Below are positions 46,415 through 58,426 of a stretch of DNA of 64,000 nucleotides, piece by piece (the stretch's first letter is position 1; every line of letters starts with the position of its first letter). This DNA comes from Saccharothrix deserti (GTDB lineage Bacteria > Actinomycetota > Actinomycetes > Mycobacteriales > Pseudonocardiaceae): contig NZ_VKAB01000015.1 of assembly GCF_009769385.1 (NCBI RefSeq), positions 124,001-188,000 on the forward strand, written 5' to 3'. The notes under the pieces are model-generated. The model was not told the origin of the DNA and did not search any database. It saw only the letters and a program-made list of their open reading frames with translations. The translations under genes were made by a program, and so were the position numbers.

Positions 46415-47407
46415 TCATCCGCCCAGTGCGTCCTGCGAGCCGGGGTGCAGCGGCACCGGGTCGGTCATCGACGCCTTGTCCTCGGCGATGTCCTTGGCCG
46501 CCGGGTGCACCGCCTCCAGCTCCGACTTCTTCTCGTAGATGAGCTTGGTCACGGCGCACGCGTCGCCCTCCGGGAAGTCCGACCGCACGAGAAGCACGTT
46601 CGGCACGACGACGGTCGGCACGTCGGCCGGCTGCCCGTAGGTGGCGGCCGGGATGACGCCCCGGTCGTACACCTCGTTGACCTTCTTCAACGCGTCCAGC
46701 TGCGGCGTGATGTCGATGAACTTGACCGCGTCCTTCAGCGACGTGGTGATGTCGGTGATCTGCGCGGTGGGCAGGCCGCCGGACCAGACGAGCCCGTCGA
46801 TGCTGCCGTCCTTCATCCCGTCCGCGGTCTTGGCCAGGTCGAGCCGCTGCGCCTGGACGTCGGTCTCCGGGTTCAGCCCGGCCGCGGTCAGCAGCCGGTT
46901 GGCGATCACCTCGGTGCCCGACTTGGGCGATCCGGTGGAGATCCGCTTCCCGCGCATGTCGGCCACCGAGTCGATCCCGGAGTCGGTCCGGACCAGCACC
47001 TGGGTGAAGTTCGAGTACAGCCTGGTCAGCGCCTGCACCTGCTGCGGCTTGCCGTCGAACGCGCCCTTGCCCGCGACCGCGTCCGCCGCCGTGTCGGCCA
47101 GCGAGAACGCCATGTCGTAGTCACCGGCCACGAGCTGCTGGATGTTCTGCACCGACGCGCCGGTCTCCGCGGCGGTGGCCTTGAGCTTGGTGTTGTCGCT
47201 GATCAGCTTCGCCAACCCGCCGCCGACGACGTAGTACACGCCGCCGGAGTTGCCGGTCGCGATGGTGATCCGCCCGTCCGCCGCTTCACAGGCGGCTCCG
47301 CCGGCGTTGCCACTGGCGGCGTCGGGGGTCCGCTTGCCGCCGCACCCGGCGGCGACGAGGCCGACCGAGAGCACCCCTGCGGCGACCTTGAGCGCCCAGC
47401 TACGCAT
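46415..47407 (-). CDS. TAXI-family TRAP transporter solute-binding lipoprotein
   Basis: A 330-residue extracellular binding protein. The signal [22 protein letters not shown] ends at lipidated Cys22. The TAXI fold is recognised from [61 protein letters not shown] and [16 protein letters not shown]. Related proteins bind organic acids or amino acids such as glutamate. Its first codons overlap the stop of the fused TRAP permease upstream (8 bp), forming a two-gene transporter. Confidence 0.92.
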
Positions 47408-49385
47408 GCTGTTCCTTTCCCGAGTTGGTCCTACGGCGCAGGACGACGTGCACCGCCACCGCGGCCACCAGGAAACCCAGGCCGACGGCGATGGTGACGG
47501 GTTGCAGGTAGAGCAGAGCGACGGCGGCGGGCGCGCACAGCGCGCGTTCCGGCCACCGCGCGGGACCGAACAGCCACCCGCCCGTGAGCACGGCCAACGC
47601 GGCCACGCCCAGCGCGGAGACGGCGAACACCCACATGCCGTCGAGGAACGACGTGCGCAGCAACAACCCGGCGCCGTTGTCCGTCAGCACGAACGCCAGC
47701 GGCACGAGGAACGCGGGCAGCGTGTACTTCCACGTCCGCCACATCGTCTTCATCACGTCGCCGCCGGTGATGGCGGCGGCGGCCACGGCGGCGAGCGCCG
47801 TCGGCGGCGTCACCTCGGACAGCACCGCGTAGTAGAAGATGAACATGGCCGCTTCCTCGGGGGCCACGTCCAGTGCGATCAGCGCGGGCCCGATGACGAC
47901 CCAGGCGATGATGAACGACGCGGTCACCGGCACGGCCAGGCCGAGCAGGCTCACCGCGACCGCCGCCAGCACCACCGTGACGAACAGCACCACGGTCGGG
48001 TTGGACGAGATCGCCGCGGCGAGGTCCACCAGCGCCGAGGCCAGCTCCAGGCCCAGCCCGGTCTTGGTGATGGTGGACGTGATCACGCCGGCCGCCGCGC
48101 ACACCGCGATCACCGGCAACGCCGACCGCACGCCCATCGACAGCGAGTCCGCCATCGCCCGCAGCCACTCCCGCACGTCACCGCGCTTGGCCACCAGCGC
48201 GAACACCGCCGCGACCCCGGTCGCGTAGACGACGGCGGAGAACACCGGGATGTTCAACGCCAGGAACACCACGATCACCGCGAGGGACAGGAAGTGGTAC
48301 CCGCCGCGCTTGAGCAGCGCCCACGGGCTCGGCGAGTCGATCTCCACCGGCTTGGCGCCGAACTTGCGCGCGTCGATCTCCACGGCCAGCGCGATGCCCA
48401 GGTAGTAGAGCAGCGTCGGCAGGATCGCCCAGATCAACACCTGGAGGTACGACGTCTCCAGGAACTCCGCGATGATGAACGCCGCCGCGCCCAGCGTCGG
48501 CGGCGACAGGATCGCCCCGATACCGGAGGCGGCGAGCAGCCCGCCCGCGCTCTCCTTGGGGTAGCCCGCTTTCTTCAACATCGGCCACGTCACCGCGCCC
48601 AGCGACACGGTCGTCGCGGTGCCGGACCCGGACACGGTGCCGAGCAGGAACCCCGCCGTGGCCGCCGTGCGGCCGGGTGCGGTCCGGGACTTGCGGAACG
48701 CGGAGAAGCTGATGTCCACGAAGAACGTCCCGGCGCCGGACGCGTTGAGCACCGACCCGTAGATCGTGAACAGCACGATGTAGGTGGCGGCGACGTCCAG
48801 CGGCGTCCCGTAGAACCCGGTGGCGTCGTTGTAGAAGCCGTTGATGATCTGCGGGAAGTCCACGCCCGCGTGCGAGATCGTCCAGGACGGCGGCAGGTAC
48901 CCGCCGTAGTAGGCGAACAGGATGAAGCCGACGCAGACGATCGGCAGCACCCAGCCGGTGGTCCGCCGGCACGCCTCCAGGATGAGCACCAGCAGCAGGG
49001 ACCCGGCGATCACGTCCAGCGTGGTCAGCTGCCCCTGGCGGTCGAGGAAGGCGTCGAACCCGCCGAACAACGGGTACGCGCCGACCACGAACGCCAGTGC
49101 CGCCGCCACCCAGTCCACGACACCGGGGTCGTCGCCGTCACCGCGCCTGCCGCGCGGTCGGTAGCAGAGGAAGACCAGCGGCAACGTGACCGCCAGGAAG
49201 ATCACCAGGTAGTACTGGCCGCCCTTGCTGAACGGCCAGAACACCTGCTTGAGCACGAGCAGCGCGATGGCGAGACCCGCCACCCACACACCCAGCTCCC
49301 ACCGCCGGGACAAGGTGCGCAACGGGCGCTCCTCGTCGTACTCGGCGATCAGTTCATCGACTTCGACCTGCGGTTTGGTCGGCAC
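47400..49385 (-). CDS. TRAP transporter fused DctQM-type permease
   Basis: A 661-residue membrane protein that joins the small four-helix DctQ-like part (N-terminal 230 residues, WELGVWVAGLAIALLVLKQVFWPF and others) to the large 12-helix DctM part, starting near QIINGFYNDATGFYGTPL and GTFFVDISFSAF. Conserved loops AATAGFLLGTVSGSGTATT, GAILSPPTLGAAAFI and EVTPPTALAAVAAAAI are present. It works with the TAXI binding protein as a secondary, ion-driven importer. I use the GTG at 49385 because AAGGGG lies five bases upstream; a GTG at 49391 would overlap that site. Confidence 0.93.
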   Translation of the reverse strand: MPTKPQVEVDELIAEYDEERPLRTLSRRWELGVWVAGLAIALLVLKQVFWPFSKGGQYYLVIFLAVTLPLVFLCYRPRGRRGDGDDPGVVDWVAAALAFVVGAYPLFGGFDAFLDRQGQLTTLDVIAGSLLLVLILEACRRTTGWVLPIVCVGFILFAYYGGYLPPSWTISHAGVDFPQIINGFYNDATGFYGTPLDVAATYIVLFTIYGSVLNASGAGTFFVDISFSAFRKSRTAPGRTAATAGFLLGTVSGSGTATTVSLGAVTWPMLKKAGYPKESAGGLLAASGIGAILSPPTLGAAAFIIAEFLETSYLQVLIWAILPTLLYYLGIALAVEIDARKFGAKPVEIDSPSPWALLKRGGYHFLSLAVIVVFLALNIPVFSAVVYATGVAAVFALVAKRGDVREWLRAMADSLSMGVRSALPVIAVCAAAGVITSTITKTGLGLELASALVDLAAAISSNPTVVLFVTVVLAAVAVSLLGLAVPVTASFIIAWVVIGPALIALDVAPEEAAMFIFYYAVLSEVTPPTALAAVAAAAITGGDVMKTMWRTWKYTLPAFLVPLAFVLTDNGAGLLLRTSFLDGMWVFAVSALGVAALAVLTGGWLFGPARWPERALCAPAAVALLYLQPVTIAVGLGFLVAAVAVHVVLRRRTNSGKEQHA

Positions 49386-49518
49386 GCGCACCCCTTCGTG
49401 TCGCGCTGGATCGAGCGCTCACGAAGCTACTTGTGTCTCGGGTCACAGCCATAGACCGACCGTCTAAAGGGACTGTAAAGACGCCGGAACAAGCCGAAAC
49501 AAGCCGACGGACAAACGA

Positions 49519-51364: not shown

Positions 51365-51504
51365 CGACCGGTGGACCACCCACCACGCGTTCACCGTGAC
51401 GTGGTCTCCGCTTCGCCTTACCGTGACCGGGACGTCGCGGTGCGCGACGAGGCTGCCGCGCGTCATGAATCTCCGGGCAGGAACCCTTTTTGGGGAGGTC
51501 GGCG

Positions 51505-52608
51505 ATGGTGCGGACGAGGATCGTCGGGGTGGCGCTCGCGGCGCTCGCGGTGGCGGGGGCGGTGGTGCTCCCGGCCGCGTCGGCGAGCGGTGACCCCGAG
51601 GTGGCGTCATCCCGCAAGGGCCCGCTGGTGATCGGCCACCGCGGTGCGTCGGGGTACCGGCCCGAGCACACGCTGGCCGCGTACGAGCTGGCCGCGCGGA
51701 TGGGCGCCGACTACGTCGAGCCCGACCTGGTCGCGACCAAGGACGGCAAGCTGGTCGCGCGGCACGAGAACGAGATCGGCGCCACCACGGACGTGGCCGC
51801 GCACCAGGAGTTCGCGGCCCGCAAGACCACCAAGGTCATCGACGGCGCGCCCATCACCGGCTGGTTCACCGAGGACTTCACGCTCGCCGAGCTGAAGACC
51901 CTGCGGGCCAAGGAGCGCATCCCGGACATCCGGCCGCGCAACACGCTCTACGACGGCCGGTTCGAGGTGCCGACGCTGGAGGAGGTCATCGACCTGTCCC
52001 GGCGGCTGTCCCGCGAGCTGGGTCGCGACATCGGCATCTACCCGGAGACCAAGCACCCGACGTACTTCCAGGAGATCGGCCTCCCGCTGGAGCCGCGCCT
52101 GGTCGACGTGCTGAACCGGACGGGCCTCAACCGGCACGGCGCGAAGGTGTACGTGCAGTCGTTCGAGGTGGCGAACCTCAAGCAGCTCAAGTCGAAGCTG
52201 CGGGTGCCGCTGGTGCAGCTGATCAACTCGTCGGGCGCGCCGTACGACTTCGTCAAGGCAGGCGACAAGCGCACCTACAGCGACCTGGTGACGCCGGACG
52301 GCCTGCGCGAGATCCGCACCTACGCGTCCGGCATCGGCGCGGCGAAGGACCGGATCATCCCGCGTGACGCGGCGGGTTTCCTGCGGGAGCCGACCACGCT
52401 GGTGCGCGATGCCCACACGCGCGGCCTGATCGTGCACGCCTGGACGTTCCGCAACGAGAACACGTTCCTCCCGGCCGACTTCCGCACCTCGACCGACCCG
52501 GCCGCCTACGGCAAGGCGTTCGGCGAGTACGCGAAGTTCTACGCGACCGGCCTGGACGGCGTGTTCGCCGACAACCCCGACACCGCCGTGGAAGCCCGCA
52601 ACGGCTGA
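51505..52608 (+). CDS. Secreted glycerophosphodiester phosphodiesterase
   Basis: A 367-residue exported GDPD that releases glycerol-3-phosphate from glycerophosphodiesters. The signal peptide VRTRIVGVALAALAVAGAVVLPAASAS is typical Sec. The catalytic block IGHRGASGYRPEHTLAAY (His, Arg and Glu), MGADYVEPDLVATKDGKLVARHENE and DIGIYPETKHPTYF are complete, and GLDGVFADNPD ends the barrel. GGGGAGG precedes the ATG at 51505. A 15-bp terminator hairpin starts 13 bp after the stop. It likely supports phosphate or glycerol scavenging. Confidence 0.93.
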   Translation: MVRTRIVGVALAALAVAGAVVLPAASASGDPEVASSRKGPLVIGHRGASGYRPEHTLAAYELAARMGADYVEPDLVATKDGKLVARHENEIGATTDVAAHQEFAARKTTKVIDGAPITGWFTEDFTLAELKTLRAKERIPDIRPRNTLYDGRFEVPTLEEVIDLSRRLSRELGRDIGIYPETKHPTYFQEIGLPLEPRLVDVLNRTGLNRHGAKVYVQSFEVANLKQLKSKLRVPLVQLINSSGAPYDFVKAGDKRTYSDLVTPDGLREIRTYASGIGAAKDRIIPRDAAGFLREPTTLVRDAHTRGLIVHAWTFRNENTFLPADFRTSTDPAAYGKAFGEYAKFYATGLDGVFADNPDTAVEARNG

Positions 52609-52621
52609 CCTGTCCCGGATT

Positions 52622-52657
52622 CCGGGGGACGCCCGCGCTCAGGCGGGCGTCCCCCGG
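52622..52657. terminator. Bidirectional hairpin after the glycerophosphodiesterase gene
   Basis: A perfect 15-bp stem CCGGGGGACGCCCGC (52622-52636) paired with 52643-52657, loop GCTCAG. It lies after the GDPD stop and at the 3' end of the convergent ssuD pseudogene, whose shifted frame now stops inside the stem at 52639. Confidence 0.85.
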
Positions 52658-53845
52658 AGATCAGGCCCCCCGACTGACAGGCTGTCAGAGGGGACCGACG
52701 ATTCCGTGCTCGAAGGCGATTCCGGCCCCGTACCGACCAGGAGGCCGCGTCGGGCCAGGATCGGCCGGACGCCCTCGCCGAACCAGAACGCCTCCTCCAG
52801 GTGCGGGTAGCCGGAGAGCACGAACTCCTCCACCCCGATGGCGTGGTACTCCTCGATCAGGTCCGCCACCTCCGCGTGGCTGCCGACCAGTGCCGTACCG
52901 GCCCTACCGCGCACCAGCCCCACCGCGCACCAGCCCGACACCGGCCCACAGCCCCGGGTGGACCTCCAACCCGCGCACCCCGCGGCTCAGGTCACCGCCG
53001 TGCAGGGCCACCATCCGCTGCTGCCCCACGGACTGCGACGACGGCAGCTGCTCCTGCGCCCTCGCCACCTGCTCCGGGTCCAACGCCTCCAGCAGCTTCT
53101 CCGCCTCACGCCACGCCTCGGCCGACGTGTCACGGCTGATCGTGTGCAACCGGACACCGAAGCGGATCGGCCGGTCACCGGCCAACGCCCGCACCCGCCC
53201 GATCTTCTCCGCCACCTGCGCCGGCGGCTCGCCCCACGTCAGGTACACGTCGGCACGCCGCGCCGCGACCGGCAACGCCGCGTCCGACGACCCACCGAAG
53301 TAGATCGGCGGCACCGGGTCCGGCGCGACCGACACCGTCGCACCGGACACCCGGTAGTGCTCGCCGCTGAAGTCCACCGGCCGACCGGACCACACCGCCC
53401 GCACCACGTGCAGGAACTCGTCCGTCCGCGCGTACCGCTGGTCGTGGTCGAGCCAGTCGCCGAACCGGCGCTGCTCGATCTCGTCACCACCGGTGACCAC
53501 GTTCAGCAGCAGCCGCCCGCGCGAGATCCGCTGGTAGGTCGACGCCATCTGCGCGGCCGACGTCGGCGAGATGACACCGGGCCGGAAGGCCACCAGGAAC
53601 TTCAACGTCGACGTCCGGGCCAGCAACGCCGCCGTGGTCAACCACGCGTCCTCGCACCACGTCCCGGTCGGCGTCAGCACGCCCTCGAACCCGTTGTGCT
53701 CGGCCGCCCGCGCGATCTGCGCCAGGTAGTCGATGTCCGGCTCACGAGCCGCCGACGGGCCCGACGACCGGTTGGCGTGGAAGCGCTCCACGACGGTCCG
53801 GCCGTCACCGGACGTGGGCAGGAACCAGTGCAGGACAACGCTCAT
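52639..53845 (-). pseudogene. ssuD: FMNH2-dependent alkanesulfonate monooxygenase SsuD, frameshifted
   Basis: The intact enzyme desulfonates C2-C10 alkanesulfonates with FMNH2 and O2 to release sulfite. The first 305 or so codons from ATG 53845 are well preserved: VVLHWFLPTSGDGRTVV, DIDYLAQIARAAEHNGFEG, TFRPG-like LVAFRPGVISPTSAAQMAST, RLLLNVVTGGDEIEQRRFGDW and [13 protein letters not shown] 16-bp tandem duplication at 52906-52936 then shifts the frame, which runs into a TAG; the true C-terminus ([20 protein letters not shown], then [20 protein letters not shown]) continues in the other frame. Removing one copy restores the frame exactly. The ATG overlaps the ssuA stop by 4 bp. Confidence 0.93.
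52906..52936. repeat. 16-bp tandem duplication that disrupts ssuD
   Basis: ACCGCGCACCAGCCC occurs at 52906-52920 and again at 52922-52936, a period of 16 bp. Since 16 is not a multiple of three it shifts the ssuD reading frame. Both copies are identical over 15 bp, so the event looks recent and could revert by slippage or recombination. Confidence 0.95.
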
Positions 53846-54756
53846 GACAGCTCTCCAGCGAAACGGGTGTCCACGAACTTCCGGAAATCGACCTTGCCGG
53901 GCAACGTGCCGTCCGCCGTGAACGCGTCGGCCAACTCCTGCTCCGACTCGATCACCTCGTCGCCCAGCTTCACCGACAGGTCCACGCCGCGCGCCACGGC
54001 CGCCCGCGCCACCTCGATCTTCAACCCGGTCTCCGCCGCCCACGCCTGCGCCCACTCCTCGTGGTGCGTGTCGGCCCACCGCTGCGCCTGGCTGTACCGC
54101 TTCACGAACTCCTTGATCGCCTCGCTCCTGCCCGGCGAGTCCAACGCCTCCCGCGAGGCCACCTGGAACGTGTAGCCGTTGGCCTTGCCGCGCCCGTCGG
54201 TCAGCACCCGGGCACCGGCTTCCTGCTCGGCCTGCGACGTGTACGGGTCCCACACCGCCCACGCGTCCACCCGTTTCTGCGTGAGCGTCACGTCCTTGGT
54301 GGTCAGGCCTTCGGCGGCGAGCGTCACCAGGATCTGCCCGTGCGCCGAACTGCCCTTGGCGACCGCGATGTTCCTGCCCTTCAGGTCCTTCACCGAGGTC
54401 GACGTCGAGTCGCCCGGCACCAGGATCGCGTCGCTCTCCACGTTGCCCCGCGCGGATTACACCGCGGCGATCTTCGCGTTGGCCGCCGCCGCGAAGATCG
54501 GCGGCGTGTTCCCGACCCCGCCGACGTCGATCGCGCCCGCGGACGCGGCCTCCAGCAACGGCGGCCCGGACGTGAAGGTCGACCACTCGATCTCGTACGG
54601 GAAGCCGTCCAACGACCCGGCCGCGGTCAGCAGCGACTTCGCCCCGCCCTTCTGGTCACCGACCCGGAGCACGACCTCGCCACCGGACGACTCCGCCGTG
54701 CCGCACCCCGACAGCGCCAGCACCACGACCACCAAGGCGCTAAGCAGCTTCGACAT
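53842..54756 (-). pseudogene. ssuA: Aliphatic sulfonate ABC binding lipoprotein SsuA, nonsense mutation
   Basis: The binding protein of the sulfonate importer: from ATG 54756 it has a lipoprotein signal (MSKLLSALVVVVLALSGC), then VVLRVGDQKGGAKSLLTAAG, the SsuA-type N-terminal lobe, and PPLLEAASAGAIDVGGVGNT. A TAA at 54457-54459 interrupts the frame after AAANAKIAAV. The same frame then continues with ARGNVESDAILVP, KGRNIAVAKGSSAHGQIL and the entire C-terminal lobe to the stop at 53842. A single base change (for example TAC to TAA) explains it. An internal start at 54441 could only yield half a protein. Confidence 0.9.
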
Positions 54757-55330
54757 CGTCCACTCCCAGATCCGACAGCACTTCCACCCGAAGGTCCACA
54801 AAGGACGCACGGCGCCGCGGTCGCGGCAGGTCGACGCGGTGCTCGGCCACGATCCGACCCTCGTCCAGCACCACGACCCGGTCGGCCGACAGCAGGGCCT
54901 CGTCCACGTCGTGGGTCACGAACAGCACGGCGGGCCGGTGCTCCCGCCACAACTGCTCCACCAGGTGGTGCATCGCGAGCCGGGTCAACGCGTCCAGCGC
55001 GCCGAACGGCTCGCCCAACAGCAGCAACTCCGGCTCGCGCACCAACGCCCGCGCCAACGACACGCGCTGCGCCTCGCCACCGGACAACGTCAACGGCCAC
55101 GCGTCGGCTCCTCGCCGATGCCGAACCCGACCGCGACCCGGCTCAACGACACCAGGAACGCGTCGACCAACCGGCCGTCCACGACCAGCTCGTAGCCGGA
55201 CCGGAACACCGTCAGCGGTGAGGCGAGCTTGTCCTCCGGCAGCACGCCGGTGCTGCTCGCGGCCTGCCACAGCAGGACCAGCCCGAGAGGGCTCGACCAC
55301 CGCCCGAAATCGGGGGGCTTTCGGCGTTGT
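54740..55330 (-). pseudogene. Sulfonate ABC transporter: SsuC N-terminus joined to SsuB C-terminus by deletion
   Basis: Two gene ends are joined. From about 55330 to 55110 the minus strand encodes the start of the permease (GLVLLWQAASSTGVLPEDKL, SGYELVVDGRLVDAFLVSLS and RVAVGFGIG), which then stops being permease-like. Near 55105 the frame changes and the ATPase C-terminus follows: DAWPLTLSGGEAQRVSLARAL, LLLLGEPFGALDALTR, LFVTHDVDEALLSADRVVVL and so on to the stop at 54740. The Walker A half of SsuB and about two thirds of SsuC are gone. Walker B reads LLLLGEP where the family has LLLLDEP. The end overlaps the ssuA start by 17 bp, giving the order ssuC-ssuB-ssuA-ssuD. Confidence 0.85.
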
Positions 55331-55501
55331 TTGACAGCGGGCGCACGCGACGGAAAGCGGGTTCAGGACGCGCGACAACACCCGCGGTGGAAACCGACAC
55401 GGATTTCTCCCAGCGGACAACGGACATCGGACGCGCTGATCAGCGAGTCCGAGTTTTCGTGGCGCCGCCGGAAGAAGTCAACGCGTCCCGAATGATGAAA
55501 A

Positions 55502-55617: not shown

Positions 55618-56964
<1,347 letters not shown>

Positions 56965-57784: not shown

Positions 57785-58426
57785 ATGTCAACGGTCAACA
57801 AAACCGCGCGATTCTCGATCTTTTCCCTGCTCCTGGCTGGTGTGCTCGCAGTCGGCCTGGTCACCCCTGCCCAGGCCACGCCACCGAACATCCCCAGTCT
57901 CGCCACTGCCCAGTCGGAACTGAACGCACTGACCGTGGCCGCCGAAGGTTCGACCACGGGCTACTCGCGGGACCTGTTCCCGCACTGGAGCACCGTCTCG
58001 GGCACCTGCAACACCCGGGAGACCGTGCTCAAGCGCGACGGCACGAACGTGGTCACCGACTCCAGCTGCGCGGCCACGTCCGGCCGCTGGTACAGCCCGT
58101 ACGACGGCGCGACGTGGACGCTGGCGTCCGACATCGACATCGACCACGTGGTGGCACTGGCTGAGGCGTGGCGCTCCGGCGCGTCCTCCTGGACCACGTC
58201 CCGGCGGCAGTCCTTCGCCAACGACCTGACCAACCCGCAACTCATCGCCGTCACCGACAACGTGAACCAGTCCAAGGGCGACCAGGACCCGGCCGAGTGG
58301 AAGCCGCCGCTGACCTCGTACTGGTGCACGTACGCCAAGATGTGGATCCACTCGAAGTACCAGTGGGGTTTGCGGGTGGACTCCGCGGAGAAGTCTGCCT
58401 TGCAAAGCATGCTCGGAAGGTGCTGA
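57785..58426 (+). CDS. Secreted HNH-family nuclease (GmrSD C-terminal/DUF1524-like)
   Basis: A 213-residue exported protein with a Sec signal (FSIFSLLLAGVLAVGLVTPAQA, cleaved near residue 31). The domain is the actinobacterial HNH type: TSGRWYSPYDG, SDIDIDHVVALAEAWRSGAS (the DHVV catalytic His), NPQLIAVTDNVNQSKGDQ (the N) and DPAEWKPP, and two Cys pairs near GTCNT/SSC and YWCTY/GRC that suggest disulfides. It probably degrades nucleic acid outside the cell. The ATG at 57785 has GGAAGG upstream (57769-57774). Confidence 0.88.
   Translation: MSTVNKTARFSIFSLLLAGVLAVGLVTPAQATPPNIPSLATAQSELNALTVAAEGSTTGYSRDLFPHWSTVSGTCNTRETVLKRDGTNVVTDSSCAATSGRWYSPYDGATWTLASDIDIDHVVALAEAWRSGASSWTTSRRQSFANDLTNPQLIAVTDNVNQSKGDQDPAEWKPPLTSYWCTYAKMWIHSKYQWGLRVDSAEKSALQSMLGRC

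Follow-up and report, generated by a model that had tools for sequence, protein, structure and literature searches.

The Saccharothrix deserti DNA analyzed here (the window, 64,000 nucleotides) very probably carries the non-functional remnant of an ssuCBAD sulfonate operon that was lost late, its importer likely first and ssuD afterwards. Judged from sequence comparison, this combined history is the best explanation of the locus. On the minus strand, the order from the purA side to the GDPD side is ssuC-ssuB-ssuA-ssuD. All four genes are broken, as a preliminary description of this DNA had stated; every lesion it listed is present, and we found more. About seven lesions of differing kinds lie within ~2.4 kb of ssu sequence. 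Profile searches recovered SsuD in two frames, SsuA on either side of a stop and a C-terminal SsuB. They gave no match for the N-terminal part of SsuC, which was recognized through the sequences of relatives instead. By SsuD, the closest named relatives are Saccharothrix.

Features of the ssu locus and its flanks (window coordinates)
Feature	Position	Strand	Basis or extent
GDPD (glycerophosphodiester phosphodiesterase)	51490..52608	+	intact right flank, convergent; PF03009 158 bits
ssuD remnant	52733..53845	-	TIGR03565 / NF001939 in both pieces
ssuA remnant	53842..54756	-	TIGR01728 matches in both pieces
ssuB remnant	54740..55107	-	NF008420 profile positions 130-239 of 257
ssuC remnant	55108..55427	-	start codon and ~first 100 codons
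promoter-like motif of ssu operon	55451..55481	-	motif scan of 25 loci and alignment to relatives
purA (adenylosuccinate synthase)	55618..56919	-	intact left flank; NF002223 637 bits, cut-off 402

The 5' part of ssuC contains a 1-bp deletion near 55358 that is absent from three relatives (G015, G013 and G016). Measured against G015, 141 bp are missing between short direct repeats (GGTTCGSNATCGGCG), with a scar near 55127, and 711 bp are missing at a junction near 55108, ending at about codon 111 of ssuB. Two deletions are the best reading of this scar, and one complex event could also have produced it. A single in-frame deletion joining ssuC and ssuB is rejected, as the two genes are in different frames and the best fit needs two deletions. 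Beyond the junction, translation in the ssuC frame gives FGIGEEPTRGR and then meets a TGA at 55090, while the ssuB remnant lies in a different frame. Therefore, no fused SsuC-SsuB protein can be made: the earlier claim that most of the permease and the Walker A half of the ATPase are deleted holds, but the fused gene it envisaged does not. About 100 of the 283 SsuC codons are left, with a frameshift among them, and no complete permease domain remains. SsuB retains its C-terminal ~120 residues, starting just before the LSGGE signature. The Walker A half is deleted, and the Walker B segment, previously noted to read LLLLGEP, is damaged by an Asp to Gly change (GGC, 55015-55013) at a position that is Asp in 12/12 intact relatives. 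The remnant therefore does not hold the pair of Walker motifs.

Further along the operon, the reported nonsense codon in ssuA is a TAA at 54459-54457, where TAC is found in 11 of the 12 intact relatives and CAG in the other. In addition, 36 bp are deleted in frame between 54285 and 54284, taking out most of an LNFLQP[SA]DAY segment that is present in every one of the 12 intact copies. The two ssuA pieces score 47.1 and 108.8 bits against TIGR01728, each below the cut-off of 163.5. Translation through the TAA raises the score to 166.5 bits, and no complete open frame exceeds the cut-off. Among the relatives, the SsuA of G006 (locus L187) is longer, with 336 codons from residue 9 and an extra stretch in mid-protein.

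The duplication described earlier in ssuD is a 16-bp tandem repeat at 52936-52905 whose copies differ by one mismatch. The gene is open for 313 codons, and the shifted frame then stops at a TAG (52906-52904). The break falls inside the conserved GLVRGG loop, and everything after it is lost. Against TIGR03565, the two SsuD pieces, which lie in different frames, score 329.9 and 73.6 bits, and neither reaches the full-length cut-off of 518.2. Descent from SsuD is nonetheless clear, with 94% identity to the SsuD of G015 over the first piece at the same locus. The 12 open SsuD copies share 278 invariant residues; the window's copy still covers 272 of these positions, and only 1 of them is changed. 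In the structure 7jv3, the loop matches chain positions 316-321; taking chain position 24 as Met1, its Arg would be the counterpart of MsuD R296. Long open pieces with low dN/dS (see below) could mean that some remnant retains a role, such as a new one taken on by a shortened SsuD or SsuA. We consider this very improbable: SsuB has no Walker A half, and SsuD is broken within the GLVRGG loop. Removing only the last 16 residues of MsuD lowered its activity from 5.7 to 0.45 μmol per min per μmol enzyme (PMC8234197).

The source genome is a draft of 10.83 Mb in 162 contigs, with a contamination estimate of 4.22, and the locus was judged from the assembly. An individual lesion, the 16-bp duplication for instance, could therefore be an assembly error, and the surviving codons look constrained, as a working operon misread in this way would have them. 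Despite these points, it is highly unlikely that errors account for the locus. The ~seven mixed lesions are confined to the ssu sequence, whereas nine genes around it align at full length with the sister species G016 and show zero internal stops. Because these neighbors are uninterrupted, bad sequence across the region is unlikely. Moreover, the sister is broken in another way at the same place, and two further relatives (G005 and G014) have lost nearly everything. The internal stops in the TRAP and GDPD alignment rows sit 5' of the start codons, and both genes are open. In the same neighborhood comparison, the window has no match for 3 of 12 G016 open reading frames and 3 of 15 from G015. The surroundings include a TRAP-type permease (DctM, PF06808) at 47400-49391, beside which a stretch at about 46769-47188 (G000:C10:170769-171188) gave a weak match in the SsuA-family search. 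At 57785-58426 lies a C-terminal domain of GmrSD-type endonucleases (PF07510, 42.9 bits) with, by eye, a signal-peptide-like start.

Selection on the remnants was estimated with our own GY94-type branch model, applied to the 12 open genomes and the window's genome (G000) over those columns that G000 retains (codons 1-360 for ssuD). On the G000 branch and in the background, omega was 0.036 and 0.035 for ssuD, 0.054 and 0.050 for ssuB, and 0.162 and 0.215 for the 5' part of ssuC; the corresponding values were 0.037 and 0.026 for purA and 0.052 and 0.063 for GDPD. The window's ssuA is slightly relaxed (0.135 against 0.068; LRT 4.56, as one of six genes and uncorrected), the sole such gene in the set tested. 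Neutrality on this branch (omega = 1) was rejected for all six genes (LRT 8.1-66.1), and refitting ssuD, ssuA and ssuB with more iterations left the values unchanged. In likelihood profiles, an omega of 0.08 for ssuD costs 5.66 in 2ΔlnL, 0.30 for ssuA costs 5.28 and 0.20 for ssuB costs 4.40. Under a two-phase reading, ssuD would have been free of selection for less than ~5% of the branch and ssuA for ~7%, up to ~25%. Because the surviving codons are about as constrained as those of intact genes, function was lost late on the G000 branch, which bears out the recent end of selection proposed in the preliminary description. The locus thus combines open orthologues in relatives, lesions in the window and codons near functional constraint, as a recent pseudogene should.

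To place this remnant in context, the purA-GDPD interval was read in all 25 genomes of a genus sample (G000-G024), and purA and GDPD flank the locus in each. Twelve genomes have an open ssuCBAD (G003, G004, G006, G009, G011, G013, G015, G017, G019, G020, G021 and G022). In seven (G002, G007, G008, G010, G012, G023 and G024), an open ssuD of 363-391 codons stands without ssuC, ssuB or a complete ssuA, although G007 and G008 retain the last ~24 ssuA codons. Fragments of ssu are found in four (G000, G016, G018 and G014), and two (G001 and G005) show no trace of it between purA and GDPD. An importer without ssuD occurs at this locus in 0/25 genomes. Lentzea (L025) and Actinokineospora (L032) also have the arrangement purA-ssuCBAD-GDPD, which suggests that the complete operon is ancestral. 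This comparison across the genus makes it likely that the importer goes first; inside the window, the weak ssuA signal and the analogy with relatives suggest the same order. One further record, labelled Rhodococcus rhodnii NRRL B-16535 (L027), has purA-ssuCBAD-GDPD with a purA ~87% identical in DNA to that of the window, and may be mislabelled.

We built a maximum-likelihood species tree from purA and GDPD only, with supports taken from the newick string. G000 and G016 group with a support of 100, and these with G005 and G014 at 95; the four genomes have zero complete ssu genes at the locus. Counted by eye, the transporter-less genomes form five clades on this tree. The clade of G018, G023 and G024 has a support of only 31. 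G018, whose ssuD is a broken piece, pairs as sister with G023, whose orphan ssuD is open (support 100), and the two look like the step from orphan ssuD to fragment. Gene trees conflict in places with the two-gene species tree, at low support, and the count of independent ssu losses is therefore uncertain.

The sister species G016 has its own set of lesions. Its ssuC 5' part is joined to ssuD from about codon 233, the -10 region and ssuC start are gone, and its ssuD has a 1-bp insertion of its own; it has neither the 16-bp duplication nor the 1-bp ssuC deletion of the window. In the stretches that both species retain (ssuC 5' part and ssuD 3' part), no common disabling lesion is present, which rules out lesions shared with the sister there. 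The one insertion in ssuC common to both, of 3 bp, is in frame. The window's remaining lesions fall where the G016 sequence is deleted.

These data bear on whether decay predates the split of G000 and G016, with an importer lesion, perhaps the ssuC-ssuB deletions, already in the ancestor and a still working ssuD lost separately in each. The operon has been lost throughout this four-genome clade, G016's large deletion covers the site of most G000 importer lesions, and G018 beside the orphan-bearing G023 resembles the same path. Against such an early start, the retained stretches share no disabling lesion and the ssuB and ssuA remnants are little relaxed. We regard it as a real possibility, though clearly short of an even chance. 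Our preferred account remains late loss, importer first and then ssuD. Synonymous divergence adds one complication: dS between G000 and G016 for the shared ssuD piece is 0.276 (82 codons), above the 0.079-0.230 of nine neighboring genes, and vertical descent alone is insufficient to explain this value for what is a small piece. Between G000 and G015, ssuD has a dS of 0.277, inside the range of 0.107-0.359 for eight neighboring genes (the ninth is without a match in L239). A foreign origin argued from the raised ssuD dS is rejected on this second value.

If ssuD were useless once the importer was deleted, it would decay neutrally, which is why the preliminary description placed the transporter loss first. 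We find the order likely and the reason unsupported. Selection on orphan ssuD was modeled with the 12 full, seven orphan and window sequences, using background, stem (branches containing the loss) and crown (after importer loss) classes. Omega was ~0.039 in the background, 0.066 on the stem and 0.061 in the crown, and three classes beat one (LRT 12.06, 12.06 and 10.92). Across three runs, a crown omega of 1 was rejected with LRTs of 96.8, 96.8 and 97.6. The crown-background comparison gave LRTs of -0.1, -0.9 and 7.1 over runs, from fits that were incompletely converged and ~2 log-likelihood units apart. In full-length comparisons, the variable C-terminal tail misaligns and inflates orphan dN/dS (0.52 for G007-G008); over codons 1-360, this pair gives 0.15. 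Orphans change 4-18 of the 278 invariant residues, compared to 0-10 in open copies (leave-one-out), and their function has probably shifted or been relaxed to some extent.

Neutral decay of ssuD can draw on these changed residues, and on the fact that four genes are broken in the window with omega raised in ssuA only. However, orphans are open in seven of the 25 genomes and evolve far from neutrality, and the window's own ssuD has such a low omega that even 0.08 is disfavored. We therefore judge neutral decay to be improbable. Instead, the open frames and the promoter-like motif ahead of them argue for orphan ssuD being in use. Beyond the genus, we listed the best 80 SsuD loci, picked by likeness to the window, some of them cut by contig ends. 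Among these, ten have no SsuC, SsuB or SsuA match in the sequence covered and six more have weak matches only, with L069 matching SsuB only and L021 retaining an ssuA tail only; solitary SsuD is thus not rare. The ten (L030, L031, L057, L065, L075, L082, L084, L085, L092 and L100) come from Amycolatopsis, Actinomadura, Actinacidiphila, Streptomyces, Frankia, Actinoplanes and an Acidimicrobiales MAG.

The predicted ssu promoter motif is still present in the window as TTGAC-N-AAAACTC. The pattern TTGAC-N16/20-RRVACTC lies 5' of ssuC in 10 of the 12 full genomes (G013 and G017 miss it), and the same promoter-like pattern stands 5' of ssuD in all seven orphan genomes. The ssuD of G002 starts at the position where a leader peptide begins in its relatives G010 and G012, and that of G024 starts at a similar distance from the motif. 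This 26-residue leader occurs in six of the 25 genomes, 5' of ssuC or ssuD (G003, G006, G011 and G021 at loci L184, L187, L192 and L202; G010 and G012 at L191 and L193). The other 19 have none, including the window, its clade and the full relatives G004, G009, G013, G015, G017, G019 and G022. The leader has SAIC or SALC near its end and begins a few bases past the promoter-like motif, as if made from a leaderless transcript. The two peptides tested reach 34 and 33.9 bits with the NF042934 profile ("putative leader peptide"), above its cut-off of 27. In mycobacteria, cysteine-rich upstream ORFs have been proposed as attenuators (PMC4633059).

Where could a solitary SsuD obtain its substrate? 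The suggested check for a second sulfonate system elsewhere in the genome turned up a candidate. The window's genome encodes another SsuA-family binding protein above the cut-off (193.9 bits), together with an ATPase and a permease, directly 3' of cysN and near a sulfite/nitrite-reductase-like gene. It has no second SsuD at E ≤ 1e-20, and contains 45 Bac_luciferase matches and two TauD-family matches. The permease has an orthologue in 25/25 genomes, 87-100% identical. Each of the other 12 genomes without the ssu transporter has the genes for the binding protein, the ATPase and the permease next to cysN or at least a piece of it, free of stops in the parts read, the stretches being short in G016 and G018; in the 12 full genomes, the permease alone was checked. 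This candidate SsuABC-family importer may feed orphan SsuD. In addition, distant SsuC relatives (50% and 48% identity) with an adjoining SsuA relative lie at G001:C1:1197781-1199255 and G023:C1:2330913-2332417; G001, which lacks a close SsuD, and the orphan-bearing G023 thus appear to hold another candidate importer elsewhere.

Taken together, the comparison suggests that the operon would die in two steps, importer first and ssuD later. The dedicated importer could be given up because a second one is present beside cysN. Deletion of ssuC, ssuB and ssuA would bring the operon promoter ahead of ssuD, where SsuD would stay useful for a while; SsuD, too, has been lost in the clade formed by G000, G016, G005 and G014. 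More broadly, ssu may have been reduced repeatedly to a promoter and ssuD, with SsuD kept under constraint and either fed by the cysN-side importer (most likely, as a switch of partner) or using sulfonates made by the cell, and the window would represent the last stage. We offer this wider picture tentatively, as one that falls slightly below an even chance.

A lone decaying operon is ordinary gene decay. The genus, in turn, provides a neat example of an operon lost repeatedly and in order: states running from the complete operon through solitary ssuD and fragments to nothing form a natural series at one place between conserved flanks, which allows the order of gene loss to be inferred by comparison and not guesswork. 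It also predicts that solitary SsuD works without its own importer, possibly via the one encoded beside cysN. In literature searches on sulfonate use by Saccharothrix, on pseudogenes of ssuD or ssuA and on SsuD lacking a transporter, with subscription journals mostly outside the material covered, no title concerned this locus.

Bacterial pseudogenes of nutrient-uptake operons ordinarily show a mix of deletions, nonsense changes, frameshifts and duplications. The window's ssu locus is the same in kind; what differs is that the genus here suggests the order of steps. The operon of Saccharothrix sp. NRRL B-16348 (L022) has the same gene order and purA-GDPD location, with 88% DNA identity over a 2412-base alignment, but is open where the window's carries its lesions. 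The orphan ssuD of Saccharothrix yanglingensis (L021) and of six other genomes shares with the window the locus and the loss of the importer. That type is open, far from neutral and behind a promoter-like motif, whereas the window's ssuD is truncated. Finally, the structurally characterized MsuD and SsuD enzymes (7jv3, 1nqk and 1m41) belong to the same family, as residues 3-360 of the L021 orphan match 7jv3 with an E-value of 1.7e-109. Compared to these structures, the window's SsuD is missing the in-frame part that follows the GLVRGG loop.
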